Below are positions 5,177-20,799 of a DNA stretch of 64,000 bases, one piece after another. The stretch covers positions 1-64,000 of the forward strand of contig JAIBBI010000011.1 of assembly GCA_019694755.1 (NCBI GenBank), given 5' to 3'. A program made the position numbers and the translations under genes. Position 1 is the stretch's first letter, and each line of letters starts with the position of its first letter. The notes under the pieces were generated by a model that was given only the letters and a program-made list of their open reading frames with translations, was not told where the DNA came from and did not search any database. The stretch is from Gemmataceae bacterium. Its GTDB lineage: Bacteria; Planctomycetota; Planctomycetia; Gemmatales; Gemmataceae.

Positions 5177-8100
5177 TCAGGATCGACCGAGCGTCCGGCG
5201 AACGATATCGAGAAGTTCCTCAGGAAGAAACGGCTTCTGCAGGAACGGCTGATCGCCGATCTCGCCACGGGTGTTGCCCGCCCCCGTGTAACCGGACATG
5301 AAGACGACTCGGAGGTCGGGGTGCGAGGCCTGGAATCCACGAGCGAGATCGGTCCCGTGCATTCCAGGCATGATTACGTCGGTAAGGAGCAGATCGACAC
5401 GAGGGCCCGTCTCGGAAAACGCCTGCCGGGCCGACTCGGCGTCGACGGCCTCCAGTACTCGATAGCCCTGCCCGCGCAGGATTCGTCCGGTCAATTCACG
5501 CACCGCAGTATTGTCTTCGACAATCACGATGGTTTGGCCGGGTGTGACCTTCGGAGGCTCGGATCTTGGCTGACTCTTGGGTTCCGCATCGCCGACAGTG
5601 GATTTTCCGACGGGTAAGTACAGTTCGAAGCGGGTGCCCGAATTCAATTCACTCTCGACTCGGATGAACCCGCCGGCCTGCCGAACGATGCTGTAGACCG
5701 TTGCCAGTCCGAGTCCTGTCCCGTGTTCCTGCTTGGTCGAAAAGAAGGGTTCAAAGATGCGGGCGCGGGTTTCGTCGTCCATGCCCACCCCGGTATCGGC
5801 GATGGCAAGTCGGATGAACTTTCCCGGTTGAACATCAGGTTCCGCGCCGACGGTACGACGGTCAACATCGACTGCGGAAGTCATCACCGACAGCGTCCCA
5901 CCGTCGGCCATGGCGTCGCGGGCGTTGACAGCCAGGTTCATGAGGATCTGGGCAAACTGATCGGGGTTGAGCAGAGTCGGGGGCAGATCGGGTGCCAGTG
6001 TCGTCTGAATCGTAATGTCTTCGCCGATCAGACGACCGAGGAATTCACGAAGTTTTCCGATCTCGGAATTGATGTGCAACTCCTGGCGTCGGACGGATTG
6101 CTGCCGGCTGAGGGAAAGAAGTTGACGGGTCAGCGCGGCTCCGCGGTGGCCGGCTTCGACGATCTGCTCGGCGGCATGGCGGAGCGGGTCGCCGGGTGAT
6201 AGGGAGGTGCTGACCAGTGACCCGTACCCGATGACAATGGAAAGCAGGTTGTTGAAGTCGTGGGCCACGCCACCTGCCAGCCGGCCGACGGCTTCGAGTT
6301 TGGCCGCCTGCCGGACCTGCGATTCGAGGCGGACGCGTTCGGAAATGTCACGGGTGCAAGTGATGATGTCGGCAGATTCGTCGTATTTCGGACCCGCACG
6401 GCGGGAGGTGGTCTCGACCCAGACTGGCGAGCCGTCCTTCCGTAGGAGCCGGAGAATGATGGTCACGGTCCGGGCCTCGCCAAACGTCTCTTGATGTCGG
6501 GCGTTTCGAAGGTCCCGGTCGTCCGGGTGTACAAAATCGAATTTGGACCGTTGTACCATCTCTTCAGGCTCATAACCCAGAAGAGCCCGGCACGCGGGCG
6601 ATGCATAGAGGATAATGCCGTCGGAAGATTGGCGGGTAATCAGGTCGCCGGCGTTCTCCGCAATCAGGCGATACCTTGCCTCGCTGTCCTGCAGCCTCGC
6701 CGCTGCATCCCGTTGTGCTGTGATGTCCTGAGTCGTGCCCATGATCCGATCGGGCTGAGTTCCCTCACCGGCGACAAACCGGCCGTGCCAGAAGACCCAC
6801 CGGACTTTTTTGTCTCGGCGGATGATCCGGTATTCGATCGACTGCTCGGCCTTCGTTTCCCTGATCTTGTTCCAGACGGCGAGGAATCGTTCGCAGTCCT
6901 CGGGATGGACGACGTTTACTATGAAATTTTCCCAGCGGACGGGCGAGCCGGGAATCAATCCGAAGATGCGGTACGATTCCGGCGACCAGAATGAGTTTTC
7001 GCCGTCGACTTCCGATTCCCAACTCCCGATCCGGGCCATCATCTCGGCTTGGTTGAGCAGCGTCTGCATCTTCAGGACGCGTTCGTACGCCTGTTTGCGG
7101 TCGGTTATGTCCCGGCTGATTCCGAAAAGGCCGACGATCTTACCAAATGTGTCACGAATCGGTTGCGTGCGTGCGTCGACCCAAATGGGTGTACCGTCCT
7201 TACGGTAGTCCATCCATTCGCCAACAAACTCCTCGCCGGACCGAATTGAATGATGGAGGCGAATGACTTCTTCACGGCGAGAACCGGAGTAAGTCTCCCA
7301 GATCGGTCGGCCGAGCCGCTCACTAGCGCGGTACCCGAACATCCGCTCAGCGGCCCGATTGTAGAATGTGACAATCCCCTCAGCATCCGTCATGACGACT
7401 GCATCGCGTACCTGAGAGAATAGAAACGCGTACCGCTCACGCAGTTCGTCCGTTTGCTGTCGCTGCCAGGTCACGATAACGTCTAGCAGGCTGAATCGGA
7501 TTGTCTCCGCGGCAATCGCCCGCTCGCCGAGCGTCCACGGCTCGCCGTATCCGCGAACTTCCTCCGGGATCCCTTCGAAGTCCTTGCGCGGATGGAAGAC
7601 GAGGGTACCGTCGACATGGGAGATGCCGGTTTTCGGATCGCCGCCCCACGTCAGGCGGCGGATTTTTTCCCTCCGCGTCCAGATAAGCCAACTTCGCTCC
7701 GATTGCGGGACACGCAGCGCCATTACGCCGCAGATCTGCGGGCTCAGGTGTGCGAACTCTGGTGCTGCTTTCGAGAGGCAGTCAGTGACAAAAAGGCCTC
7801 GTTGGGAGTTTGATTCCAGCCAGTCAGCCAGCCGGTGCCACTCCTCTTTGGCCGGCATTTCGCCCTCACAGTACGCCTCCGACGGGGTGACGAGTGTGCA
7901 GTCGTCCGCCGCCACCAGAGACCGTAACCCGTGTTCGGTATCCAGAAGTCCAGTCGCCCAATGCGGACCCCGGCCAACGAATGCCGGAATCTTCTGCAGT
8001 TTCTCCTGGGCGTGACGTGCTTCCGTGGTTTGCTCGCGGAGTGTCCGATTCTCAATCCGATCTGCAATCATTCGGGCGGCGATGCGGAAGAAGCGGCCTA

Positions 8101-8923
8101 GTCGTGCCGACGGCCACCTGGGTTCGCGGTGATGACACGACAGCATGCCCCAGAGCCGACCGTCGACGATGATCGACGCCGAAAGTGAAGCGGAGACTCC
8201 CATGTTGCAATAAAAGCCCTTGCAGCATTCGTGGAAAGCTCGCAGTCGGGCCCCGGAGAGATCGACTCGAAGGTCTGGGTGTTCCAGAATCAACGGAATG
8301 TCAGCATGCTTGGCGTCGCCGAGGGCGTGTACGGCATGAGTTTCGTAGAGTTGGCGGGCCTGAGGGGGAATGTCGGACGCCGGGAACCAGTACTCGAGAA
8401 ATGGCGTCATTCCCGGCTGGACGACCTCGGCGATGACTTGGCCGTGCCAGTCGTCGTCGAACCGGTAAAGCATCGTGTGGTCGTACCCCAGAACCGGAGC
8501 GAGTTCGCGGACGACATGACGCAGGTCGGCGATGGTGTCCGGCAGGGACCGGGTCATTGCGTCAAAAAAAAGTTCGGACTCACATGCCGGGTCGAAACCC
8601 GGGCGAATGAACTCGACGATCCGGACACCGCCGGTCCGATGAACGCGCCCTTCGAGATCCCGGTGCCGGAATTCGGCCGAGCCAGTGATGCGATCAAGGG
8701 GAGGGCACGAAAACACTTGATCCGAGGCGGTGCCCAAGAGTTCGTCGGGGGTTCGTCCAAGATACTCCGCAGAGTTTGCGCCGCAACCCGTAATCCTCCT
8801 GGTATCGTCGAGTACTAGAAGAGCGCCGTGCGGCTGGACGAAACGCGGTGCAGCCACATCAAACCCGGCGCAGAGCTCGAGCGCTTCCTTCGGAACTTCC
8901 CAGGCGGCGAGCCGGTCGGTCAT
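5177..8923 (-). CDS. Bacteriophytochrome hybrid histidine kinase with three extra PAS domains and a receiver domain
   Basis: The protein has 1248 residues. It has a PAS-GAF-PHY photosensory core (about 20-495), PAS domains at about 500-610, 625-740 and 748-865, HisKA with AHDFNN (His888), HATPase with NLAVNARDAM, DTGVGM and GTGLGL (about 990-1105), and a receiver domain with Asp1182. Chromophore signatures are clear: Cys18 followed eleven residues later by QPHGALL (the biliverdin-linking position of bacteriophytochromes), PASDIPPQARQLY (181-193), SCHH (262-265) and the PHY tongue motif WGGDP (426-430). The GAF segment AFHECCKGFYCNMG also carries Cys233 where cyanobacterial and plant phytochromes attach bilin. 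Cys234 replaces the usual histidine. It is divergent from the kinase/regulator pair at 9016-10357, and a heme oxygenase and a bilin reductase lie on the same island. No membrane segment is present, so it is cytosolic. Confidence 0.9.
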   Translation of the reverse strand: MTDRLAAWEVPKEALELCAGFDVAAPRFVQPHGALLVLDDTRRITGCGANSAEYLGRTPDELLGTASDQVFSCPPLDRITGSAEFRHRDLEGRVHRTGGVRIVEFIRPGFDPACESELFFDAMTRSLPDTIADLRHVVRELAPVLGYDHTMLYRFDDDWHGQVIAEVVQPGMTPFLEYWFPASDIPPQARQLYETHAVHALGDAKHADIPLILEHPDLRVDLSGARLRAFHECCKGFYCNMGVSASLSASIIVDGRLWGMLSCHHREPRWPSARLGRFFRIAARMIADRIENRTLREQTTEARHAQEKLQKIPAFVGRGPHWATGLLDTEHGLRSLVAADDCTLVTPSEAYCEGEMPAKEEWHRLADWLESNSQRGLFVTDCLSKAAPEFAHLSPQICGVMALRVPQSERSWLIWTRREKIRRLTWGGDPKTGISHVDGTLVFHPRKDFEGIPEEVRGYGEPWTLGERAIAAETIRFSLLDVIVTWQRQQTDELRERYAFLFSQVRDAVVMTDAEGIVTFYNRAAERMFGYRASERLGRPIWETYSGSRREEVIRLHHSIRSGEEFVGEWMDYRKDGTPIWVDARTQPIRDTFGKIVGLFGISRDITDRKQAYERVLKMQTLLNQAEMMARIGSWESEVDGENSFWSPESYRIFGLIPGSPVRWENFIVNVVHPEDCERFLAVWNKIRETKAEQSIEYRIIRRDKKVRWVFWHGRFVAGEGTQPDRIMGTTQDITAQRDAAARLQDSEARYRLIAENAGDLITRQSSDGIILYASPACRALLGYEPEEMVQRSKFDFVHPDDRDLRNARHQETFGEARTVTIILRLLRKDGSPVWVETTSRRAGPKYDESADIITCTRDISERVRLESQVRQAAKLEAVGRLAGGVAHDFNNLLSIVIGYGSLVSTSLSPGDPLRHAAEQIVEAGHRGAALTRQLLSLSRQQSVRRQELHINSEIGKLREFLGRLIGEDITIQTTLAPDLPPTLLNPDQFAQILMNLAVNARDAMADGGTLSVMTSAVDVDRRTVGAEPDVQPGKFIRLAIADTGVGMDDETRARIFEPFFSTKQEHGTGLGLATVYSIVRQAGGFIRVESELNSGTRFELYLPVGKSTVGDAEPKSQPRSEPPKVTPGQTIVIVEDNTAVRELTGRILRGQGYRVLEAVDAESARQAFSETGPRVDLLLTDVIMPGMHGTDLARGFQASHPDLRVVFMSGYTGAGNTRGEIGDQPFLQKPFLPEELLDIVRRTLGRS

Positions 8924-10543: not shown

Positions 10544-11767
10544 ATGCCCCTGACCTTCACCGACGATCCGCTGCTCGCGATGCTCGTTCGGGAGAAAGTA
10601 CTGGCCCCGGCCGACGCGGACGCTCTTCGGGCCTGGCACGACGCCGACGGCGGCGCGGGCGAATCGATGGTGGAGTTCCTGACCCGGCAGAACATCCTCG
10701 ACCGCTCCGCCCGTCGGGCGATCGACCTGAACTTGAAGGGCTACGTCGGCTCGATCGACCTCGCCTCGATCTGGCCGGCCGGCAAACTCGAAGACATCCG
10801 ACGCCGCTTTGAGCGTGCCGGGACGACCCAGATCGACGCCCCCCGGACGACTCACTCGGCCGTGCCGATCTTTTCGACGATGGAGGCCGGCAGTCTGGAC
10901 TCCATCGACACGCCGCCGACATTCGAACGCCCATCGATCGGCAGCCGGGTCGGCCGTTGCCTGCTGACAGAACTCCTCGCCGAGGGCGGCGGGGGCATCG
11001 TCTATCGGGCGCTCCATCAGGGGTTGAACATCCCTGTGGCCGTCAAGCTGCTGAGCACCGCGCGGGCCCGGACGGACTTCCGCAAGCGGTTGCAGTCCGA
11101 GGCACGGTCGCTCGCCCAGTTGGATCACCCCAACGTCGTGCGCGTGCTGGATCACGACGACTCGGATCCGCCGCACCTTGTCCTCGAATACGTGGACGGA
11201 CCCAATCTCGCGGACCTGATCCGACAGGCTGGCGCGATCCGGTACGACCGGGCCCTTTCCATCATCCGGCAGGCAACGGAGGGTTTGCAGGCGGCCGAGC
11301 AAATCGGCATCCTGCACCGCGACGTCAAGCCGGCGAACATCCTGATGACAAGGCGCGGCGTGGCCAAGGTCGCCGACTTCGGCCTCGCCGTGCCCACGAC
11401 CGGCCAGAACTCGGCCGTCCCCCTCGGGCTGTCCGGCACGCTACCGTTCATGTCCGAAGAGCAACTCGTGTGCTCGCCGACGATCGATAGCCGAGCCGAC
11501 ATCTACTCGCTGGGCGTGACATTCTACCAGGCTGTGACCGGTCGGCTCCCGTTTCGGGCGCGGACCTGCCACGAACTGGTGGCGGAGATCCGGTCGGGAC
11601 GGTTCGAGCCGCCGCACAACTTCGTGCCCGGCCTGACGCCGGACGTGTCGCACGTGATTCTGCGGATGATGGCCCACGCCCCGGCTGACCGCTACCCGGG
11701 CTACGCCGACCTGTTGGCCGACCTGACGGAACTCGCCCATCGTGCAAAGGAAGGGGGGAATCGATGA
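10544..11767 (+). CDS. Soluble Ser/Thr protein kinase, first gene of the bilin operon
   Basis: The protein has 407 residues. Residues 1-130 form an alpha-helical N-terminal region resembling the leader domain of many planctomycete kinases. The kinase domain (about 132-400) has a glycine loop LLAEGGGGIVYRA, the ATP-binding lysine in VAVKLL (Lys168), catalytic HRDVKPAN (Asp260) and DFG at 278-280. No transmembrane helix is seen, so it should act in the cytosol. Its kinase domain is closely similar to that of the next gene (RCLLTEL...IVYRALHQGLNIPVAVK here, KCLLTEK...VVFRALHKALNLPVAVK there), suggesting tandem duplication. Its stop overlaps the next start in ATGA at 11764-11767, so the two are translationally coupled. 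Confidence 0.88.
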   Translation: MPLTFTDDPLLAMLVREKVLAPADADALRAWHDADGGAGESMVEFLTRQNILDRSARRAIDLNLKGYVGSIDLASIWPAGKLEDIRRRFERAGTTQIDAPRTTHSAVPIFSTMEAGSLDSIDTPPTFERPSIGSRVGRCLLTELLAEGGGGIVYRALHQGLNIPVAVKLLSTARARTDFRKRLQSEARSLAQLDHPNVVRVLDHDDSDPPHLVLEYVDGPNLADLIRQAGAIRYDRALSIIRQATEGLQAAEQIGILHRDVKPANILMTRRGVAKVADFGLAVPTTGQNSAVPLGLSGTLPFMSEEQLVCSPTIDSRADIYSLGVTFYQAVTGRLPFRARTCHELVAEIRSGRFEPPHNFVPGLTPDVSHVILRMMAHAPADRYPGYADLLADLTELAHRAKEGGNR

Positions 11768-13392
11768 AGAAGATCTCCCTCGAACCGATCCACGATACGT
11801 GTGAAGTCCGGACCGGAACGCCGCTGCTCCAAGCCTTGCAGGCGAAAAAGCTGAACGTTCTGGCCTCCTGCGGCGGACGCGGACTGTGTGCGACCTGCCA
11901 TGTGCATGTCAGGAAGGGAAGCGAGGCGCTCTCGCCCCGCAACGACCGGGAGTCGCGGACGCTTTCGTTCATCTCCGGAACTTCTCCGGAGAGCCGGCTG
12001 GCATGCCAGGTCCGCGTGTACGGTCACGGCGCTGTGGTGGAACTGCCACGCGGCATGTACATCGAACGGGCCGAGGACCTGCTCGACCTGCTCGGCACCC
12101 GCGCCCCGGACGACATCCTCCACCCGGTCACCGGCATCGTGCTGGTCGCCCAGGGCAAGATCATCACGCGGGCCCGGATCGAAGAACTGAAGAACCTCGG
12201 CAACGAAGTGAAGCAGGCGCTCGGGAACACGACATCGACGGCGATCCCGCGCCCGAAACTGCCTCCGACTACGCCTGCCCCGATTCCGGTGCCGGAGGCT
12301 CCGAAGCCGACGCCGGTGGTCGAGCAACCCCGGCCGGTCAAGCCCGCTGTTGAACCGATGCCGGGCAGTTCCACCGTCATGGGTGCCCGGTTGAACGGCT
12401 CGACCTCCATCAGCGCGAGGCCCGAAGGTGGCGTACCCCGCCCGCCCGCCGCCGCGAAACTCGAAGTCGGCGCGCAGATCGGAAAATGCCTTCTCACCGA
12501 GAAGGTCGGGCAGGGGAGTTCCGGTGTCGTGTTCCGAGCACTGCATAAAGCCCTGAACCTGCCGGTGGCCGTCAAGGCCATCGTGTTGAAGGAACATCAG
12601 GAACTGCTCGACAACGAGAATGCCGACATCCGCCTCCGCCTGCGGGATGAGGCCCGGCTGATGGCGCAACTTAATCACCCGAACATCATTCGCGTGTGGG
12701 ACTTCGATGAAGAGTTCGAGTTCCCTTATGTGGTGCTCGAACTGGTCGAAGGGCTGAGCCTCGCAGAGTTGATCCAGCAGAGCGGCCGGCTCACGCTCGA
12801 CCGGGCCGCCCCGATCATCCGGCAGGTGGCCGACGGCCTCGCCGCCGCCTGGACAATCGGCATCGTTCACCGCGATGTGAAGCCGGGCAACATCCTGCTC
12901 ACGAAAGACGGTCGCGCCAAGGTCGCCGATCTCGGCCTCGCTTGGGTCGTCAACCGGGCAGATGCCACCAGCAAAACACCCACGCTGCCGGAAGGCACGA
13001 TGGCCTACATGGCACCCGAGCAGGCCGTCGGCAGCGACAAGCTCGACTTCCGCAGCGACATCTACGCACTGGGTGCGACCTTCTTCCATGCGATCACCGG
13101 GCGGATGCCGTTTCCGGGCCGGTCGTGGCAGGAAGTGATGATGAAGCACGCCCGCGTGCCGCTGGAGCCGCCGCACACGCTGGTCCCCGAACTGAGCCCG
13201 GCCGTCTCCGCCGTCATCGGCCGGATGATGGCGAAGGACCCGAATGACCGTTACCCGGATTACACCGCGCTGATGGCAGACATCGACGGTCTGCGAGTAC
13301 CCCGGAGCGATCCCGCCGCATCCGCTCCCGGGTCGTCGACGGTCGGCAAGTCGTCGAAATGGCTGGGCCTGTTCGGCGGACTCCGCCGGTAG
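11764..13392 (+). CDS. 2Fe-2S ferredoxin-Ser/Thr kinase fusion protein
   Basis: The protein has 542 residues. Residues 1-95 form a ferredoxin domain with ligand cysteines Cys36, Cys42, Cys45 and Cys81 (SCGGRGLCATCHVH, then RLACQVRV). Residues 96-155 repeat, almost residue for residue, the C-terminal tail of the stand-alone ferredoxin at 14802 (RGMYIERAEDL, DDILHP, RIEELK). A Pro-rich linker (about 160-230) leads to a kinase domain with VAVKAI (Lys271), HRDVKPGN (Asp371) and DLG at 389-391 in place of DFG. There are no membrane segments. A kinase carrying its own redox centre suggests that cluster oxidation or loading tunes kinase activity, or that the domain donates electrons while tethered to the complex. 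Both readings are inference. Confidence 0.88.
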   Translation: MKKISLEPIHDTCEVRTGTPLLQALQAKKLNVLASCGGRGLCATCHVHVRKGSEALSPRNDRESRTLSFISGTSPESRLACQVRVYGHGAVVELPRGMYIERAEDLLDLLGTRAPDDILHPVTGIVLVAQGKIITRARIEELKNLGNEVKQALGNTTSTAIPRPKLPPTTPAPIPVPEAPKPTPVVEQPRPVKPAVEPMPGSSTVMGARLNGSTSISARPEGGVPRPPAAAKLEVGAQIGKCLLTEKVGQGSSGVVFRALHKALNLPVAVKAIVLKEHQELLDNENADIRLRLRDEARLMAQLNHPNIIRVWDFDEEFEFPYVVLELVEGLSLAELIQQSGRLTLDRAAPIIRQVADGLAAAWTIGIVHRDVKPGNILLTKDGRAKVADLGLAWVVNRADATSKTPTLPEGTMAYMAPEQAVGSDKLDFRSDIYALGATFFHAITGRMPFPGRSWQEVMMKHARVPLEPPHTLVPELSPAVSAVIGRMMAKDPNDRYPDYTALMADIDGLRVPRSDPAASAPGSSTVGKSSKWLGLFGGLRR

Positions 13393-13430
13393 GCTCCGGA
13401 AAAACTTTCACCCTGTGAGGAACTCGAACG

Positions 13431-14060
13431 ATGGACATCGCCACCCGCCTTCGCGTCGCCATGGGGGCGACGCATTCCGCGATCGAACAACTGCCGGTGA
13501 GCAAAGCGCTCGTCGCGGGCACGGTCGGCCGGGACGAGTACCGGGCTCTCCTGTCCCAACTTCTGCTGGTACATGAGGCACTCGAAGACGAATTGTCCGC
13601 CTGCCCCGACGCGGCGGGATTCCTCACTCCGGACATGATGCGGGCCGACGCTCTTCGGGGTGATCTGGTGGCCCTCGGCGCGGAAAGCGTGGATCCCCCG
13701 TTCGGCGAAACGCTCCGGCTAGCCGAGCTGATGCACGCCTGGGCGGCCGTCACGCCGTGGAAGCTGATCGGGGCACTCTACATCTTCGAGGGGTCCCGGA
13801 TGGGATCGATGTTCCTCGTGAAGCCGGTCGCCCGCGCCCTCGGCGTGCCGGTCCAACCGGGCTACGGCGTCGACTATCACCTCGACGGACTGGCGACACG
13901 GCCGCAGACCTGGGCCCGTTTCAAGGTCGGGCTCGCGCAACTGCCGTTCACGGCCGAACAGTGGGACGAAGTCGTGTCCGCAGCCGAAGAGACCATGAAC
14001 GCCCTTTTCGATCTTTACGCCGCGATGGCGGATCACTCGGCATGCGTCCTGACAGCGTGA
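13431..14060 (+). CDS. Heme oxygenase (biliverdin-forming)
   Basis: The protein has 209 residues and starts after the ribosome-binding site GAGGAAC. The N-terminal helix carries the likely proximal heme ligand His15 in AMGATHSAIEQ, and the distal helix shows the signature GALYIFEGSRMGSMF (compare LYxLEGSxxGG in the family). The length fits bacterial heme oxygenases. The enzyme opens heme to biliverdin, CO and iron using reduced ferredoxin or another donor. Two ferredoxin domains are encoded next to it, and a bilin reductase starts 7 bp downstream. Biliverdin is also the standard chromophore of bacteriophytochromes such as the one at 5177-8923. Confidence 0.85.
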   Translation: MDIATRLRVAMGATHSAIEQLPVSKALVAGTVGRDEYRALLSQLLLVHEALEDELSACPDAAGFLTPDMMRADALRGDLVALGAESVDPPFGETLRLAELMHAWAAVTPWKLIGALYIFEGSRMGSMFLVKPVARALGVPVQPGYGVDYHLDGLATRPQTWARFKVGLAQLPFTAEQWDEVVSAAEETMNALFDLYAAMADHSACVLTA

Positions 14061-14067
14061 GGAAGCC

Positions 14068-14805
14068 ATGACGGCACAACTCGGCGAGCCCTGCATCGAC
14101 GTGACAGCATTGGCCACGCGCACCCACGCGGAACTGCGGGAGTTCGCTCCTGCCCCGCGTTACGTGCCGACGGAGTTGGCGATTGCTGTCGGCCTGAACG
14201 GACGGACCCGGCTCCACGCCCAGGCGATCGGTCTGGGACTGGATGATCTGACGGCCGAGTGCCGGCTGGTGACGATCCGCGGACTGACCGCGACGATCTT
14301 CAACTGCCTGATCGTGCCCGACCTGCCGGGCCGGACGCCGCTCTTCGTAGCCGACATGCTCGCCAGCCACGACGAATTGCGGATCGGCTTCTTCGACGTG
14401 CAGGTGCCCGGCGTGTCCGACGCCCTGCGGGAATGCGTGGCCGCGGAGACTTGGAAGCTGGTTGGCCGATACGCCCACCTCCCGGCCGACGATCCGCCGA
14501 CCTGGGCGGTCGCCCACTCGACCGGCGCGTACCTGTGCTGCCGGCCCGAGGGCGCGGAGCAGGCGGCCGAGCTGCTCGAGGCCTACTGGGATTACCTGAG
14601 TCTCTGGATCCAGATGGCCCGGCACCCCAGTGCGGCCGAAACGGCCCCGCCGGAAGGCGCGGCCCGGGCCCTGGCGGCCATGTTTGAGGAGCACCTGAGT
14701 TCCGCACCCAACCGGCCCTACCTCGAAAGACAATTCGGGACGCATTGGGCTCACCGGTTCTGCAACGAGTTTCTGTACCGGGAAGCCGGCGGAGATCGCA
14801 CATGA
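14068..14805 (+). CDS. Candidate ferredoxin-dependent bilin reductase (pre-PcyA/HY2-like)
   Basis: The protein has 245 residues, the usual size of PcyA-type reductases. The middle has the family pattern of paired strands: IFNCLIVPDLPGRTPLFVADML (residues 77-98, split here as IFNCLIVPD and PLFVADML), then the acidic strand IGFFDVQVPG (106-115, Asp110 a candidate catalytic acid). The C-terminus reads RPYLERQFGTHWAHRFCNEF, like the closing helices of the family. The gene sits between heme oxygenase and a ferredoxin and overlaps the ferredoxin start in ATGA. It should reduce biliverdin with ferredoxin electrons; the product cannot be predicted. Similarity to true PcyA is partial, so the pre-PcyA assignment relies on the neighbourhood as well. 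Confidence 0.72.
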   Translation: MTAQLGEPCIDVTALATRTHAELREFAPAPRYVPTELAIAVGLNGRTRLHAQAIGLGLDDLTAECRLVTIRGLTATIFNCLIVPDLPGRTPLFVADMLASHDELRIGFFDVQVPGVSDALRECVAAETWKLVGRYAHLPADDPPTWAVAHSTGAYLCCRPEGAEQAAELLEAYWDYLSLWIQMARHPSAAETAPPEGAARALAAMFEEHLSSAPNRPYLERQFGTHWAHRFCNEFLYREAGGDRT

Positions 14806-15281
14806 AAACCCTGGTCCTCGCACCCATCAACGAGGAAGTCACCGTCCCGACGCAGTCCAGCATCCTCCAGGCCCTTCTGGCGAAGGAACTGGAAGTACCG
14901 ATGGCCTGCAAGGGGAAAGGCGTCTGTGCCACGTGTCACGTGCACATCCGCGCCGGGCACGACCGCCTGACTCCGCGAACCGATCGCGAGAAGAAGACGC
15001 TGGGCTTCATTACCGGGGCGGACCCCAGCAGCCGGCTGGCGTGCCAGTGCCGGATCCTCGGTGAAGGCGTGGTCGTGGAACTGCCCAAGGGCATGTACAT
15101 CGAGCGTGCCGAAGACCTGATCGACCTCGTCGGTACGCGGGCGGCCCAGAACATCCTGCACCCGATCAACGGCTCGATTCTGATCGCCGAGGGCAAGCTG
15201 ATCACCCGGAGCCGGATCGAAGAACTCAAGCGACTCAACGTGGAAATGGACGAACTTCACAGCTCGATCGCCAACGATTGA
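14802..15281 (+). CDS. 2Fe-2S ferredoxin with conserved C-terminal extension
   Basis: The protein has 159 residues, counted from ATG 14802, which overlaps the reductase stop by 4 bp. Cluster ligands are Cys36, Cys42, Cys45 and Cys81 (CKGKGVCATCHVH and RLACQCR), the same numbering as in the ferredoxin-kinase fusion. Residues 90-150 form an extension shared with that fusion (KGMYIERAEDLIDLVGTR, then RSRIEELKRLN). A plant-type ferredoxin normally has about 95 residues, so the tail is an added module, perhaps for docking. It is the obvious electron donor for the adjacent bilin reductase and heme oxygenase. Cys83 is an extra cysteine beside the cluster. Confidence 0.85.
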   Translation: MKTLVLAPINEEVTVPTQSSILQALLAKELEVPMACKGKGVCATCHVHIRAGHDRLTPRTDREKKTLGFITGADPSSRLACQCRILGEGVVVELPKGMYIERAEDLIDLVGTRAAQNILHPINGSILIAEGKLITRSRIEELKRLNVEMDELHSSIAND

Positions 15282-15305
15282 CCTACTACCACCCGGAGGA
15301 GACCC

Positions 15306-16070
15306 ATGGCCGGACAGAACGGTACCCACACGGCAACGCGGCCGGCAAACCATGCCGGGACCGACCCTCTCCGCTACCTGCGGACCGAGAAGGCGAAAGG
15401 CGAAATCCGCGACGCGTTCCAGATCGTCCGCGGACCTCAGCCCGTCAAGCACAACTACTACACCGACGACCGGTTCTTCTCCCACGACAGCAAGGCCGGC
15501 ATCGTCCGCAACGTGTACGGCCAACGGGTGGTGCGGGTCAGCGAAGACTTCATCACCGGTCTGCTGGGCGGCCTCGAAGAAGAAGTCGGCGATGCCGCCG
15601 GCGAGATCATGTACAAGGCCGGCTACCAGTGGGGCCTGGAGGACATGAAGACATTCACTCCCCGCTGCCAGGAGGAGTTCGAAGTCGCCTTCCAGAAGAT
15701 GGGCATGGGCTTCATGCTCGAGACCTGGTGGTGGCCGCTGCAGATCGAGGGCTGGGGCGGCTGGCGGTACGACTTCCGCCAGGGCAAGCAGGGCCTGATC
15801 TTCATCGATCTGTTCGAGTCGGCCGTGGCCCAGTCGCTGGGCGACGTCGGTAAGGTGATGTGCTACTTCTACGCCGGGCTGTTCGCCGCGGTGTTCACCG
15901 TGCTGTCGAAGCGTGAACTCGCCTGCATCGAGATCCAGTGCTACTCGATGGGCGAGGACTTCTGCAAGTTCCTGATCTCGACCAACAAGCGCGTCAATGC
16001 CGCGGCCTTCTGGCGGAGCGAAGGGGCGACGAGCGCGGACATCATGAAGAAAGTGCGCGACGTCGCGTAA
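15306..16070 (+). CDS. V4R-domain protein, first copy
   Basis: The protein has 254 residues, with a strong ribosome-binding site (CCCGGAGGAGACCC) before ATG 15306. The C-terminal half ends in the V4R hallmark: Cys207, Cys212 and Cys220 in ACIEIQCYSMGEDFCKFLI. V4R domains are small-molecule binding modules known from BchJ-type vinyl reductase proteins and from sensors of aromatic compounds. The N-terminal 50 residues are polar and may be disordered. In BBAG clusters two V4R proteins flank the globin, as here, with a small protein between. Binding of a tetrapyrrole or of an assembly intermediate is plausible but not shown. Confidence 0.8.
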   Translation: MAGQNGTHTATRPANHAGTDPLRYLRTEKAKGEIRDAFQIVRGPQPVKHNYYTDDRFFSHDSKAGIVRNVYGQRVVRVSEDFITGLLGGLEEEVGDAAGEIMYKAGYQWGLEDMKTFTPRCQEEFEVAFQKMGMGFMLETWWWPLQIEGWGGWRYDFRQGKQGLIFIDLFESAVAQSLGDVGKVMCYFYAGLFAAVFTVLSKRELACIEIQCYSMGEDFCKFLISTNKRVNAAAFWRSEGATSADIMKKVRDVA

Positions 16071-16089
16071 CCACCCCGAGGACTCAACC

Positions 16090-16512
16090 ATGTCAGCTCT
16101 GTTACTCGATGGGCTCGCCGAAGCCCGCCGCATCGACGACCTGCTCGACGACGTGGTGGCCGAGGCGTTTGAGGAAAAGCCGGTCGCCATCGTTTCGACC
16201 AACAGGCAACCGCTGGGCGGCCTGCCGATCGGGCAGATCCTCCGCAATGTCAACTGGACCAACCGGCCGCGATACGACTGGCCGGCCCGCATCGACGCCG
16301 AGCCCGACGCGCCGCCTGCCGACGAAAGCGCGTGGGAGCGGTTCGCCACCCCCGTGGGCGCGCTCGGCCTGCGGGCGTTCCTCAACACGTGTCACTGGAC
16401 CAACGACGGGGTCGCCCCCGCCCGTCCGACTTTCGCGGCCGTCGGCGTCGCCCCCAAGCCGGTGCCGATAGCGACGGTCGAATCCGTGTTTGGCGGATTC
16501 GCCTGGGATTGA
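16090..16512 (+). CDS. Small protein with repeated aromatic motif, unknown function
   Basis: The protein has 140 residues and I do not recognise a domain. It contains two related segments, ILRNVNWTNRP (50-60) and FLNTCHWTNDG (97-107), and ends in VFGGFAWD. All three fit a pattern of a hydrophobic residue, Leu/Phe, two free positions, a hydrophobic or Cys residue, one free position and Trp. The same pattern appears twice near the C-terminus of the kinase at 17837 (FFDGFGWQ and AFRAFQWD). Connecting regions are rich in Pro, Ala and Asp and are probably disordered. It lies between V4R copy 1 and the globin with a 19-bp gap upstream. A scaffold or adaptor role through the repeated motif is the most natural reading, but is inference. 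Confidence 0.65.
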   Translation: MSALLLDGLAEARRIDDLLDDVVAEAFEEKPVAIVSTNRQPLGGLPIGQILRNVNWTNRPRYDWPARIDAEPDAPPADESAWERFATPVGALGLRAFLNTCHWTNDGVAPARPTFAAVGVAPKPVPIATVESVFGGFAWD

Positions 16513-16582
16513 TCGACTTTTACCCTTCGCCGGGAGGCCGGGCCGAAGGGCTGTCCGCACACCCCACACTGGAGCCTTGATC

Positions 16583-17080
16583 ATGAACCCCGCAGTACTG
16601 GATGTCATTCGCGAGAGCGAGAGCCGATACCTCAGCGACCAGGAGATGCAGAGCATCCTGGAGTACACCGAATCCCTGCCGGAGCGGTTCCGCGCCGCCC
16701 GGGCCATCGAAGACATCGAAGACCAGATCGTCCAGGCAACGATTGATCAGGTCAAGAAACGCTACCCGAGCTTCGAGCGGTATCACCCGTCCGCATGGGA
16801 CAAGGGCTACCGCGACGTTCAACTCACCCTCCGGTACTGCGTCCAGGCGATGGTCTGGGAAGACCCGATGATGCACGAGGAAAAGCTGCTCGTGTGGCTC
16901 GGGACCATCCTGGCCTCGTTCGGCTTCACGCCGCAGTTCAACCGAGACACCTACGTGTTCCTGCGCGACAACGTCAAGCAGCGGGTGTCGGAAGACATCT
17001 ATTCGCGGCTCGCGCCGTTCCTCGACAAAAACATCGAGGTTCTGGGAGGCATCCCCGAACCGCACCAGCCCCTGGTCTGA
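16583..17080 (+). CDS. Phycobiliprotein-like globin (BBAG, bilin biosynthesis-associated globin)
   Basis: The protein has 165 residues, the length of an allophycocyanin subunit; ATG 16583 follows GGAG at 16571. The pattern matches phycobiliproteins: SESRYLSDQEMQSI at the start, RAARAIEDIEDQIVQAT in the first globin helices, then GYRDVQLTLRYCV where light-harvesting subunits read CLRDxxxxLR. The bilin-linking cysteine two residues before Arg-Asp is Gly75 here, while Cys86 lies further along the helix. The protein is therefore globin-fold and phycobilisome-family in character but not a standard antenna subunit. BBAGs in non-photosynthetic bacteria are reported to bind bilins (recalled literature). 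It is encoded between two V4R proteins, downstream of heme oxygenase and bilin reductase. Confidence 0.78.
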   Translation: MNPAVLDVIRESESRYLSDQEMQSILEYTESLPERFRAARAIEDIEDQIVQATIDQVKKRYPSFERYHPSAWDKGYRDVQLTLRYCVQAMVWEDPMMHEEKLLVWLGTILASFGFTPQFNRDTYVFLRDNVKQRVSEDIYSRLAPFLDKNIEVLGGIPEPHQPLV

Positions 17081-17103
17081 TTCACCCCGCGGAGCACTTT
17101 GCC

Positions 17104-17763
17104 ATGACGACTGCGATGACGACCCCCGCCCGCGGCAACTACTACGCGGAGCGCGACTACCTGAAGACCGACGTGAAGCGGGGCGTGACCCGCAACCGCG
17201 CCGGCACCCGCATCCTGACTCTGACCAGCGACTTCCTCATCGGCCTGCGCAACGCGCTCGTCTTCGAGTGCGGCAAGGCGGCCGACGCGGTGATGAAAAC
17301 CGCCGGGCGGAAGTGGGGCACGAACTTCGCCGCCCGAACAGACAAGGAACTCGGAGCCTTCTACGGCCGGCCCGTCGCCGAGTTCCCCTTGGCTCTGTTC
17401 GAAGCCAGCATGGTGATGGCCTTCAGCCATCACGGGTTCGGCAAGCTGAAACTCGATGTCAGCATGTACGACAAAGGTCTGCTGGTCGCGATTGTCGAGA
17501 ACCCGATCTACTTCGGCCTCGTCGAAAACCCCGCCGGCCCGTCCGACGCGCTGCTCGCCGGTATCTTCGCCGGGATCTTCAGCCACTTCGCCGGCCGGGA
17601 GTTGGACTGTGCCCAAACGCAGTGCCAGGCGTGCGGTCTGCCCGACAGCCGGTTCGTGATCTCGCTGAAGTCCCGCCTCGGCGGCGTCGAAGCCTGGCTG
17701 AAAGACGGCAAGTCGCATGCGGAGATCCTCGCCGCCCTCGCACAGACGAAAGGAACCGAGTGA
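17104..17763 (+). CDS. V4R-domain protein, second copy
   Basis: The protein has 219 residues. The C-terminal V4R signature reads DCAQTQCQACGLPDSRFVI; compared with copy 1, the third cysteine is shifted toward the second and Ser replaces the last one. The N-terminal part (YYAERDYLKTDVKRGVTRNR) parallels copy 1 (YYTDDRFFSHDSKAGIVRNV), so the two genes are diverged paralogs that may form a heterodimer. It lies 23 bp downstream of the globin gene. The stop codon overlaps the start of a 10-codon open frame by one base. Confidence 0.78.
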   Translation: MTTAMTTPARGNYYAERDYLKTDVKRGVTRNRAGTRILTLTSDFLIGLRNALVFECGKAADAVMKTAGRKWGTNFAARTDKELGAFYGRPVAEFPLALFEASMVMAFSHHGFGKLKLDVSMYDKGLLVAIVENPIYFGLVENPAGPSDALLAGIFAGIFSHFAGRELDCAQTQCQACGLPDSRFVISLKSRLGGVEAWLKDGKSHAEILAALAQTKGTE

Positions 17764-17795
17764 TGATCCTCGACTTCCTCTGGTTCTTTGTCTGA
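17763..17795 (+). CDS. Possible 10-residue hydrophobic leader peptide
   Basis: ATG at 17763 shares its first base with the V4R stop (TGATG) and encodes MILDFLWFFV before TGA. The junction is a typical translational-coupling arrangement and the peptide is strikingly aromatic. It lies in the 73-bp gap before the kinase at 17837 and might act as a coupling or regulatory leader. Such a short frame can also arise by chance. Confidence 0.25.
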   Translation: MILDFLWFFV

Positions 17796-17836
17796 TCGCA
17801 TGACGGCGGGCCCGACCCGCCGGGGAGAACGCAGCC

Positions 17837-19168
17837 GTGTTGCTGGTATCGTGTAGTGCAAGTGGGCCCGGCGGGATCGCGCCGCCGGACGATGGGGAAG
17901 TGGCCCGCCTCGCGGGCGACCTCGCCGCCGACCTGACTCCGCGCTACCACCTGCTCGGCTACGTCAACCGCGGTGCGTTCGCCACGGTCTGGCGGGCCCT
18001 CGACCGCCAGACGATGCAGACCGTCGCCATCAAGCGGTTCGACCCCGACCGCGCAGAGCGGGCCCGCGACTTCTACAGCGAGTTGCGAGCGCTGTTCCGC
18101 TTGCGGCATCCGAACGTGGTGCATGCGCTCAACTTCGTCGAAACGCAGGCCGGGCACCGCTGTCTGGTGCTCGAGTTCTGCTCGGGCGGCAGCCTGCGGG
18201 CCGTCGTCCGCCGGCAATGCAGTACCGGCCGCGGACTGCCCGCCGAGCAGGTGACCGATTGGCTCCGCCAACTGGCGGACGGTCTGGCCACCGCCCACGC
18301 GATCAGCATCGTTCACCGCGACCTGAAACCCGAGAACGTCCTGCTCGCACCGGCACCGACTGTTAGCCGGCACCGGCGGGTCCCCGTCGGGCCGCATCGG
18401 ACGGAATCGGCCTGGCCTGCTTTGAAGATCGCCGACTTCGGGCTGGCCCGCGGTCGGGCCGAGCGGAGGGGTGACGGTCGCCTCACGGGTCTGACCGGTT
18501 CGCCCGCCTACATGGCACCCGAGCAGTTCATCGGCAAGTTCACGCCCGAAAGCGACGTGTACGCCCTGGGTGTGATGACGTGGGAACTGCTGTTCGGCCG
18601 CCCGCCGTTCGCCGGGGGCCCCGAAGAACTCGCACGACAACATCTGCACGAACCGCTGCCCGATCTCGTAGCAGATGTGCCCTGGATGACGCTGTTGACC
18701 GACATGTTGGCCAAGGATCCCCACCGGCGGCCGAGCGCTGCCGAAGTTGCCCGGCGACTGGCCGGGCGGGAGACACTCATGCACGACCCGGAATCACTTC
18801 GGGCTCTGGAAGCCGAGGAAGAATCACTGTGGGGCGAACTGGCCGCGCTCGGAGCCTACTCCGCCGGCCCGCCAACACATGTGGAAGAGCCGTCGTTCGT
18901 CCTCAACGACGTGACCGAACTGGCGGCCCGACTGGTTGCCCCGACGGTTCCCCGCGCGGCCCCACCTTCGCCCGCGCTTCCGTCGGTCCGCTTGGCTCCG
19001 CCAGCGCCCGCCGCGCCGGTTCTGAAAGAAACGGCCCCGGCCGTGAACGGCTTCTTCGACGGCTTCGGCTGGCAGGCACCCAACGAGGCCGCCAGCCCCG
19101 CACCCGCACCCGTAACCGCACCCACCGAGACAAGCCATGACGCCTTTCGAGCATTTCAATGGGACTAA
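17837..19168 (+). CDS. Soluble Ser/Thr protein kinase with aromatic-motif tail
   Basis: The protein has 443 residues; GTG 17837 is preceded by GGGGAGAAC. The kinase domain (about 36-330) has GYVNRGAFATVWRA, the ATP-binding lysine in VAIKRF (Lys66), HRDLKPEN (Asp162), DFG at 200-202 and APEQ. Residues 345-443 form a Pro/Ala-rich tail with FFDGFGWQ (406-413) and the terminal AFRAFQWD (436-443), which match motifs in the small protein at 16090. That suggests the kinase and the small protein dock on the same partner. Synechocystis has a kinase gene (spkG) at the end of its V4R/ferredoxin operon, which makes a functional parallel likely (recalled). No membrane helix is seen. Confidence 0.85.
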   Translation: MLLVSCSASGPGGIAPPDDGEVARLAGDLAADLTPRYHLLGYVNRGAFATVWRALDRQTMQTVAIKRFDPDRAERARDFYSELRALFRLRHPNVVHALNFVETQAGHRCLVLEFCSGGSLRAVVRRQCSTGRGLPAEQVTDWLRQLADGLATAHAISIVHRDLKPENVLLAPAPTVSRHRRVPVGPHRTESAWPALKIADFGLARGRAERRGDGRLTGLTGSPAYMAPEQFIGKFTPESDVYALGVMTWELLFGRPPFAGGPEELARQHLHEPLPDLVADVPWMTLLTDMLAKDPHRRPSAAEVARRLAGRETLMHDPESLRALEAEEESLWGELAALGAYSAGPPTHVEEPSFVLNDVTELAARLVAPTVPRAAPPSPALPSVRLAPPAPAAPVLKETAPAVNGFFDGFGWQAPNEAASPAPAPVTAPTETSHDAFRAFQWD

Positions 19169-19181
19169 GCACGACGCGGGG

Positions 19182-19844
19182 ATGCGTCGGCCTTATGTCC
19201 TGACAGTCGCCAGCCACAAGGGCGGCACCGGGCGGACGACCGTCGCGCTCGCGCTGGCGTGGATCTGGGGCCAACTCGGCCGCCGGGTGTTACTCGCCGA
19301 CGCCGACCCGAACCGCTCGGCCGCTTTGATCGCCGCCGATGATGCCGGTGCGTGCCGCTGGCCCGGTGTCGACTTCATGGAAGGGATGCCCGCGCTCGAT
19401 CGATTGCCTCCCCCGGCCGACGTGATCGTCGTCGACTGCCCGGCCCTGACCGAGACCGGCGCGTACGACGTGCTGCGTCACACCGACGGTCTCGTACTGA
19501 CCTGCCTGGCGGACACGCTCTGCTTGCGGACCCTGCCGACGAGCACGACGGCGATCCGTGAGTCGGTGGCCGTCAACCCCCGGCTTCGGTTGCTGGGGTT
19601 GGTCATCAATCTGTTCGACGGCGCGGACCCGGCCCAGGTCCGGCTCGTGAATCGTATCCACAAAGCCGGCAAGCCGCCGCTGATCGGCTTGCCGATCCCC
19701 GTGCAAAACGCGGTCAGGGATTGGCCTCTGAACCCCGGGAGTGGATTCCCCGGCGGGACCGCCCGGGCCGCGTGTCTCGAACTGGCGTTCTCACTTCAGC
19801 AGGAACTTCGGCTCGGATCCACCAAATCGGCCGGGAGGTTCTGA
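19182..19844 (+). CDS. ParA/MinD-type P-loop ATPase, first copy
   Basis: The protein has 220 residues from ATG 19182; an in-frame ATG at 19137 would add 15 residues and overlap the kinase by 32 bp. The deviant Walker A reads SHKGGTGRTT, with the signature lysine kept but Arg in place of the second lysine. The switch region includes LLADADPNRS, and VVDCPA is the Walker B-like strand. Members of this family partition DNA or position complexes by ATP-dependent dimerisation on membrane or nucleoid. No parB or parS site is visible, so chromosome or plasmid segregation is not supported. It is followed four bases later by a second ATPase. Confidence 0.82.
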   Translation: MRRPYVLTVASHKGGTGRTTVALALAWIWGQLGRRVLLADADPNRSAALIAADDAGACRWPGVDFMEGMPALDRLPPPADVIVVDCPALTETGAYDVLRHTDGLVLTCLADTLCLRTLPTSTTAIRESVAVNPRLRLLGLVINLFDGADPAQVRLVNRIHKAGKPPLIGLPIPVQNAVRDWPLNPGSGFPGGTARAACLELAFSLQQELRLGSTKSAGRF

Positions 19845-19848
19845 TTCC

Positions 19849-20799
19849 ATGCGACGCATCCTGATTGCCAGTCAGAAAGGCGGAGTCGGTAAGACGACGA
19901 CTGCCGTCAACCTCGCAGCCGCGGCCGCGCTCGTCGGCCGGCGGACTCTGCTACTCGATGCCGACCCGCTGTCCAGCGTCGGGGCCTGCCTGAAACTCGA
20001 GCGGTCGGCATCCAAGCCGGCGTTCCCAGGCAACCCGGCTGCCGCCATCTGGAGCGACGTCCTGCCGGGGCTCGATGTGGTCAGCCCGTACTCGGCCGGT
20101 TCGTTTTCCGAAGATGAACTCGCCGACGGTTTGGCCGGTATGAAACGACTCCTCGACCGCGGCGCGTATCAGTTGCTGATCATCGACTCGCCGCCCTCGA
20201 TGTGGCAGCGGTCGCGCCGGCTGCTCGATGCCGCGGACGAATTGATTCTCGTCATGCGGGCCGAGCCGCTCGCATTCCGGACGCTCCCGAAGTACCTGGA
20301 GCAATTGAAGGCCGCACGCACGCCCGGCAGCCCGGGCCGGCTCCGCGGAATCCTGCTGACCGCGCCCCCGGGAGCGAAGCCCAACGGCGCGATGGAAAAG
20401 GAGATGAAGGAACGGTTCGGCAATCGCGCTCTGCCGGTGACGGTGCCGTTCGACAGCGAAGTGACGCAAGCTCAACTCATGGGAAAGCCGGTCGTCGCCT
20501 ATCGACCACACTCGCCCGGGGCGAATGCCCTCCTGGAACTGGCGTTAGCGTTGCAACTGATCGGCAAGAACGACAACGTGGCCCGTGCCGCCGCCCAGCC
20601 CGCTCCGGTTTTCAAATTTGCGGAAGAGACGCGCCCGGTCCTTCGCGACGCCGCCGAGGTTCTTCGCGAGCTGAAGCTGCCTCAAGCGGACGACACCGCA
20701 GCGATGTTCGATCCGGCCGCCCCGATCGGGGAGCAGCGGGATCGGCCAGTTTCCCGCATCCGCCGATGGCTCGACCGGCTGCGGGTGCTGACGCGATGA
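19849..20799 (+). CDS. ParA/MinD-type P-loop ATPase, second copy
   Basis: The protein has 316 residues, with a ribosome-binding site GGGAGG upstream. It carries a complete deviant Walker A, SQKGGVGKTT (signature Lys10, Lys15), then LLLDADP and LLIIDSPPS. The C-terminal 70 residues extend beyond the ATPase core and contain a basic end (RIRRWLDRLRVLTR). It is the last gene of the operon. Paired with the preceding diverged copy it may form a heterodimer that locates the bilin/kinase complex in the cell, or may be a relic of element maintenance. The sequence does not decide between these. Confidence 0.85.
   Translation: MRRILIASQKGGVGKTTTAVNLAAAAALVGRRTLLLDADPLSSVGACLKLERSASKPAFPGNPAAAIWSDVLPGLDVVSPYSAGSFSEDELADGLAGMKRLLDRGAYQLLIIDSPPSMWQRSRRLLDAADELILVMRAEPLAFRTLPKYLEQLKAARTPGSPGRLRGILLTAPPGAKPNGAMEKEMKERFGNRALPVTVPFDSEVTQAQLMGKPVVAYRPHSPGANALLELALALQLIGKNDNVARAAAQPAPVFKFAEETRPVLRDAAEVLRELKLPQADDTAAMFDPAAPIGEQRDRPVSRIRRWLDRLRVLTR

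Follow-up and report, generated by a model that had tools for sequence, protein, structure and literature searches.

How much of the Synechocystis operon slr0144-slr0152, whose part in assembling photosystem II is still poorly understood and whose kinase and small protein have been little studied, existed before its genes were used in photosystem biogenesis? The question is raised by a locus in a stretch of 64,000 nucleotides from a Gemmataceae bacterium (Planctomycetota; GCA_019694755.1, contig JAIBBI010000011.1, positions 1 to 64,000; hereafter the window), a non-photosynthetic planctomycete carrying the type of bilin cluster that is thought to be ancestral to that operon. Here two V4R genes, a small protein, a phycobiliprotein-like globin and a Ser/Thr kinase, K3, are encoded one after another. 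We find that the locus is a kinase-bearing variant of the known pre-PcyA clusters and, judging from sequence comparison, it is very probable that it is homologous to slr0144-slr0149 and that a kinase was part of the ancestral module.

The core of the locus consists of V4R-A, the counterpart of Slr0144 (15306..16070; Pfam V4R 2.5e-15), a small disordered protein of 140 residues with three short motifs (16090..16512), the globin, of the BBAG type (16583..17080; Phycobilisome 1.6e-21), V4R-B, the counterpart of Slr0147 (17104..17763; V4R 2.8e-8), and K3 (17837..19168; Pkinase 1.7e-45), whose GTG start at 17837 is uncertain. A stand-alone [2Fe-2S] ferredoxin, the counterpart of the Slr0148 (Fd5) type (14802..15281; Fer2 1e-11), precedes V4R-A, and a second [2Fe-2S] ferredoxin domain forms the N-terminal part of a fusion with a Ser/Thr kinase further upstream (11764..13392; Fer2 1e-9, Pkinase 5e-48). 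Coordinates, strand and Pfam matches bear out the arrangement described in an earlier note on this DNA, i.e., V4R, small protein, globin, V4R and Ser/Thr kinase with ferredoxins nearby. The whole run of genes from 10544 to 20799, which begins with a further kinase (K1) and the fusion and ends with two ParA-like ATPases, lies on the forward strand. The order is beyond chance because this locus holds the only two V4R genes in the genome, and because the same order is seen again in other members of the family, in a planctomycete from a different class and in Myxococcota.

Clusters of this kind have been described in heterotrophs. Rockwell, Martin and Lagarias (2023; PMC10151467) reported clusters of heme oxygenase, pre-PcyA, an Fe-S protein, two V4R and BBAGs, listed planctomycetes for those of the pre-1 type, and concluded that slr0144-slr0149 descends from pre-PcyA clusters. 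The window holds this set in a single cluster: a heme oxygenase (13431..14060; Heme_oxygenase 1.7e-20), a ferredoxin-dependent, pre-PcyA-like bilin reductase (14068..14805; Fe_bilin_red 3.4e-12), the Fe-S protein, V4R of clades A and B, and the globin. The core of the correspondence with slr0144-slr0149, including the greater age of the cluster relative to its photosystem role, is already published, such that the earlier note's proposal of a module predating its use in photosystems stands, but not as a new idea. The window departs from the clusters as described there by K3 and the motif-repeat small protein, which are conserved across phyla, and by the ferredoxin-kinase fusions; in the main text of that paper the word kinase occurs once, in the reference list, and neither a kinase nor a motif-repeat small protein is described as a member. 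Our gene maps cover 12 fetched regions and 27 loci from genome contigs (L and G numbers denote loci and genomes), mostly of metagenome-assembled genomes and found through V4R-A, which places clusters without V4R-A outside the sample. The cyanobacterial sequences compared are those of two plasmid clusters of Acaryochloris marina MBIC10699 (L064, L065).

How far does the correspondence extend gene by gene? On the Acaryochloris plasmids the order is V4R, small protein, globin-like protein, V4R, ferredoxin and allophycocyanin-like protein; a TPR protein and another ferredoxin come next, and insertion sequences are close by. V4R-A, the small protein, the globin and V4R-B are collinear with these clusters gene by gene, an observation that is new here. 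First, the V4R tree (a quick tree without bootstrap) has two clades, A and B, in both of which planctomycetes, Myxococcota and Acaryochloris are represented (SH-aLRT 100), and the window has one V4R of each; the genome has no further V4R to which the copies could be closer. Second, the small protein has a cyanobacterial counterpart, the protein at the same place in Acaryochloris (hhalign E 4.9e-8, probability 94.8%). Third, the BBAG profile aligns with the Acaryochloris globin that is encoded between small protein and V4R-B (hhalign E 2.9e-14), though the Pfam score of that globin is under the cut-off. Fourth, the window ferredoxin is 46-51% identical to the Acaryochloris cluster ferredoxins. 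The gene-by-gene correspondence with slr0144-slr0152 suggested earlier is therefore upheld for the four-gene block and the ferredoxin, with Acaryochloris rather than Synechocystis as the term of comparison. The order is not identical: Acaryochloris has its ferredoxin behind V4R-B, whereas most loci from planctomycetes and Myxococcota have theirs ahead of V4R-A. The planctomycete and myxococcal loci also yielded no counterpart of Slr0151, the TPR protein.

The cyanobacterial clusters further differ from the window in lacking heme oxygenase and bilin reductase and in having an extra second globin (after V4R-B in Acaryochloris), the TPR protein Slr0151 and the ferredoxin Slr0150. The Synechocystis operon resembles the window by its V4R/small/globin/V4R block, its Slr0148-type ferredoxin and its downstream Ser/Thr kinase. 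Further searches with the cluster proteins returned planctomycete, myxococcal and related loci only (V4R-A profile, genome contigs), no match (viral contigs) and no additional V4R cluster (tblastn of plasmids, the queries being the TPR protein and a myxococcal K3).

The small protein, for which the Pfam search returned no match, has the motifs GQILRNVNWTN, RAFLNTCHWTN and VFGGFAWD in the window. Across loci the repeat follows the consensus (P/S/T)(V/L)xxF(L/F)xx(V/I)NWx(N/G), with hxxhhxxFxWD at the C-terminus, and the FLxxVNWxN/G-repeat protein is found in planctomycetes and cyanobacteria and, in weaker form, in Myxococcota. In 19 small proteins we counted 31 internal matches (0.08 on average in shuffled residues) and 12 C-terminal ones (0.002 when shuffled), counts that overstate the significance because the patterns were tuned on the same sequences; that the motif turns up at the same gene position in different phyla carries more weight. 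Together with the alignments, this suggests that the motif-repeat protein is an inherited part of the cluster that was previously passed over. The AlphaFold2 model of the protein (mean pLDDT 60) is for the most part disordered and forms short helices where the motifs lie. The motif is also carried by the C-terminus of K3 in the window (FFDGFGW ... FRAFQWD) and in L042, and by an extra open reading frame directly after K3 in three loci (L026, 960-1568, reverse strand; L039, 14351-14770; L027, 2318-2875, reverse strand), which looks like the K3 tail split off as a gene of its own, or the reverse. A degenerate DNA version of the motif gave 0 matches in the genome of the window, even in the small protein itself, and is uninformative on other motif proteins.

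Is K3 a genuine member of the cluster? Hanks kinases abound in planctomycetes and myxobacteria, a search returning 17 to 144 matches per genome, and the adjacency of SpkG varies among cyanobacteria (PMC10151467), so that a kinase beside the cluster might be unremarkable and the likeness to the place of SpkG a coincidence. The kinase phylogeny contradicts this for K3: in a tree of 72 kinase domains, a single branch (bootstrap 100, SH-aLRT 96) separates the 17 cluster K3 of Planctomycetota, Myxococcota and Bradymonadota from the other 55. Among these 55, each of the ten genomes searched is represented by one to three of its closest K3 paralogs. The position of K3 is also kept, immediately after V4R-B in 10 of the 13 planctomycete loci with the order of the window, including the genome from another class (G065, L036), and after V4R-B in five loci of Myxococcota and Bradymonadota (in one with a ParA-like gene between), while it is upstream of V4R-A in two. 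With the small protein's motif in the K3 tail as well, we regard a chance association as very improbable, and the idea of K3 as a random planctomycete neighbour is ruled out by a clade that crosses phyla and stands apart from own-genome paralogs. In one genome (G399) the cluster is split over distant loci, with V4R-A, globin and V4R-B in one (L029) and a kinase, heme oxygenase, ferredoxin, K3-like kinase and two ParA in the other (L127).

The claim that a kinase was in the ancestral module is supported because the findings named beforehand as fatal to it (V4R copies and kinase closer to other planctomycete paralogs, a small protein of no counterpart) did not appear wherever comparison could be made: K3 groups with the cluster kinases of other phyla. 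On the published tree, pre-3 clusters (largely myxococcal), not pre-1, adjoin the cyanobacterial ones (PMC10151467). Hence, if the myxococcal clusters are of the pre-3 type, K3 brackets the cyanobacterial cluster and the ancestor of the cluster would have had the kinase. The bilin reductase is present in five of the six myxococcal genomes tested, which fits the published pre-3 clusters as far as gene presence goes. Alternatively, planctomycetes and myxobacteria could share K3 because the cluster passed horizontally from one group to the other long ago, in which case K3 would say nothing about the ancestor of the cyanobacterial cluster. Such a transfer would agree with the patchy distribution of the genes: of 392 planctomycete genomes sampled, 2 have a bilin reductase (the genome of the window is one of them), and 9 of 59 relatives have V4R-A. 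It would have to be old because planctomycete and myxococcal K3 form separate subclades on long branches, and the tree that sets pre-3 rather than pre-1 clusters beside cyanobacteria also speaks against it, which makes us think it rather unlikely.

What would the kinase do? In the mechanism we propose, the heme oxygenase and the bilin reductase, with electrons from the [2Fe-2S] ferredoxin of the cluster, would make a reduced bilin, which the two V4R and the globin would bind or pass on as one complex. The small protein would be a flexible scaffold: its FLxxVNWxN/G repeats would attach to some folded partner, to which the copy of the motif in the K3 tail would also recruit the kinase. The most plausible way in which K3 would then control the complex is phosphorylation of the ferredoxin, as suggested by the relation of SpkG to Slr0148 in Synechocystis. 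The gene for SpkG is the last of the Synechocystis operon and phosphorylation of Fd5 (Slr0148) is lost in its absence, the enzyme activity itself being described as unverified (PMC11863333); Slr0144-Slr0149 are physically associated (PMC9880817), and a homolog of slr0152 also neighbours the cluster in Acaryochloris RCC1774 (PMC6002478). The sequences themselves show the parts, their homology to proteins of other phyla, the clade of K3 kinases and the motif that K3 and the small protein have in common. The explanation as a whole, with a planctomycete pre-PcyA cluster homologous to slr0144-slr0149, an inherited K3 and small protein and a complex working as proposed, is in our view probable; its specific kinase-ferredoxin mechanism we put forward tentatively.

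A second link between ferredoxins and kinases is provided by the fusion, whose Fer2 domain is a paralog of the stand-alone cluster ferredoxin and retains all four Cys. Such fusions are present in eight planctomycete loci (the window, L025, L033, L040, L050, L051, L052 and L062), which supports a functional link of the Slr0148-type ferredoxin with Ser/Thr kinases in general, not with K3 in particular. The fused kinase sits outside the K3 clade, and the notion that its own clade is exclusive to bilin clusters is rejected on account of at least one paralog in the same genome (G000:C250) that lies outside them.

With several kinases per cluster, the locus could also be a sensor, in which the V4R pair and the globin perceive a bilin, a tetrapyrrole or light, K3, K1 and the fused kinase are the output, and the ferredoxin serves the bilin reductase only. 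The C-terminal regions of K3, which differ in length and sequence among loci, would suit this, as would the phytochrome histidine kinases near the clusters of the window, L025, L051 and L062 and the weak fluorescence of characterised BBAGs, unlike antenna proteins (PMC10151467). The same BBAGs are photoinactive, however, some relatives with V4R and globin lack K3, and the loss of SpkG affects the phosphorylation of the operon's own ferredoxin, which points inward (PMC11863333). We consider a sensor somewhat unlikely. In the AlphaFold2 model of K3, the kinase domain is confident, and the tail (348-443) stays below pLDDT 50 and contains one short helix (433-438).

Several observations weigh against kinase control of an inherited bilin complex, or against parts of it. 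The published analysis put slr0150-slr0152 aside as poorly conserved and often absent (PMC10151467). No kinase was found anywhere on either Acaryochloris plasmid, though the small protein is present. The kinase tree contains no SpkG sequence, which limits what it says of a link between K3 and SpkG, and the fusion says nothing direct on either, because its kinase is of another clade than K3. A second planctomycete order, in eleven loci, comes without K3 and the small protein, and the motif is degenerate in L054, L059 and L061. Finally, the globin of the window retains the RD of CXRD but has Gly for its Cys (KGYRD), which makes covalent bilin binding doubtful; any bilin would therefore be held non-covalently or through another residue. 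The attachment Cys is present in only some BBAGs (PMC10151467) and is not required of them.

If the kinase and the motif protein are ancestral, the action of SpkG on Fd5 becomes a conserved function that is open to test in organisms lacking photosystems, and the FLxxVNWxN/G motif is a handle for finding what binds the complex together. We would go further only as a speculation that may well be wrong: V4R, globin and ferredoxin would have formed a kinase-controlled, motif-scaffolded bilin machine before cyanobacteria, with SpkG a direct descendant of K3 that phosphorylates the same ferredoxin, and the whole would have been taken over for photosystem II biogenesis.

The loci with the second order (L030, L033, L034, L043, L045, L047, L049, L050, L051, L052 and L062) encode ferredoxin, V4R-A, V4R-B and two globins, and often add a heme oxygenase and the ferredoxin-kinase fusion. 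Because the bilin reductase is absent from both of the genomes tested for it (those of L051 and L045), biliverdin may be the pigment of these clusters. The reductase of the window has a weak match to PcyA in the Protein Data Bank, with Asp105 kept and Asn at the position of His88. A phytochrome hybrid histidine kinase (PAS_2-GAF-PHY) is encoded at 5177-8923 on the reverse strand and may use the bilin of the cluster. It has a Cys before QPHG, at the place that bacteriophytochromes use, and a Cys in the GAF domain (RAFHECCKGFYCNMG) at what is presumably the place where, as in Cph1, reduced bilins attach in the phytochromes of plants and cyanobacteria. The GAF Cys is absent from the phytochromes near the clusters of L025, L051 and L062.

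At the borders of the run, K1 (10544..11767; Pkinase 5.1e-41) falls in the clade of the fused kinase, and K3 is followed by two ParA/MinD-like ATPases (19137..19844, CbiA 4.3e-13; 19852..20799, AAA_31 7.8e-17), possibly a positioning system for the complex. Both also come after K3 in L025, L026, L027, L042 and L044, relatives with the same order; in L035 the pair comes after V4R-B, and in the myxococcal L060 a ParA-like gene lies between V4R-B and K3.

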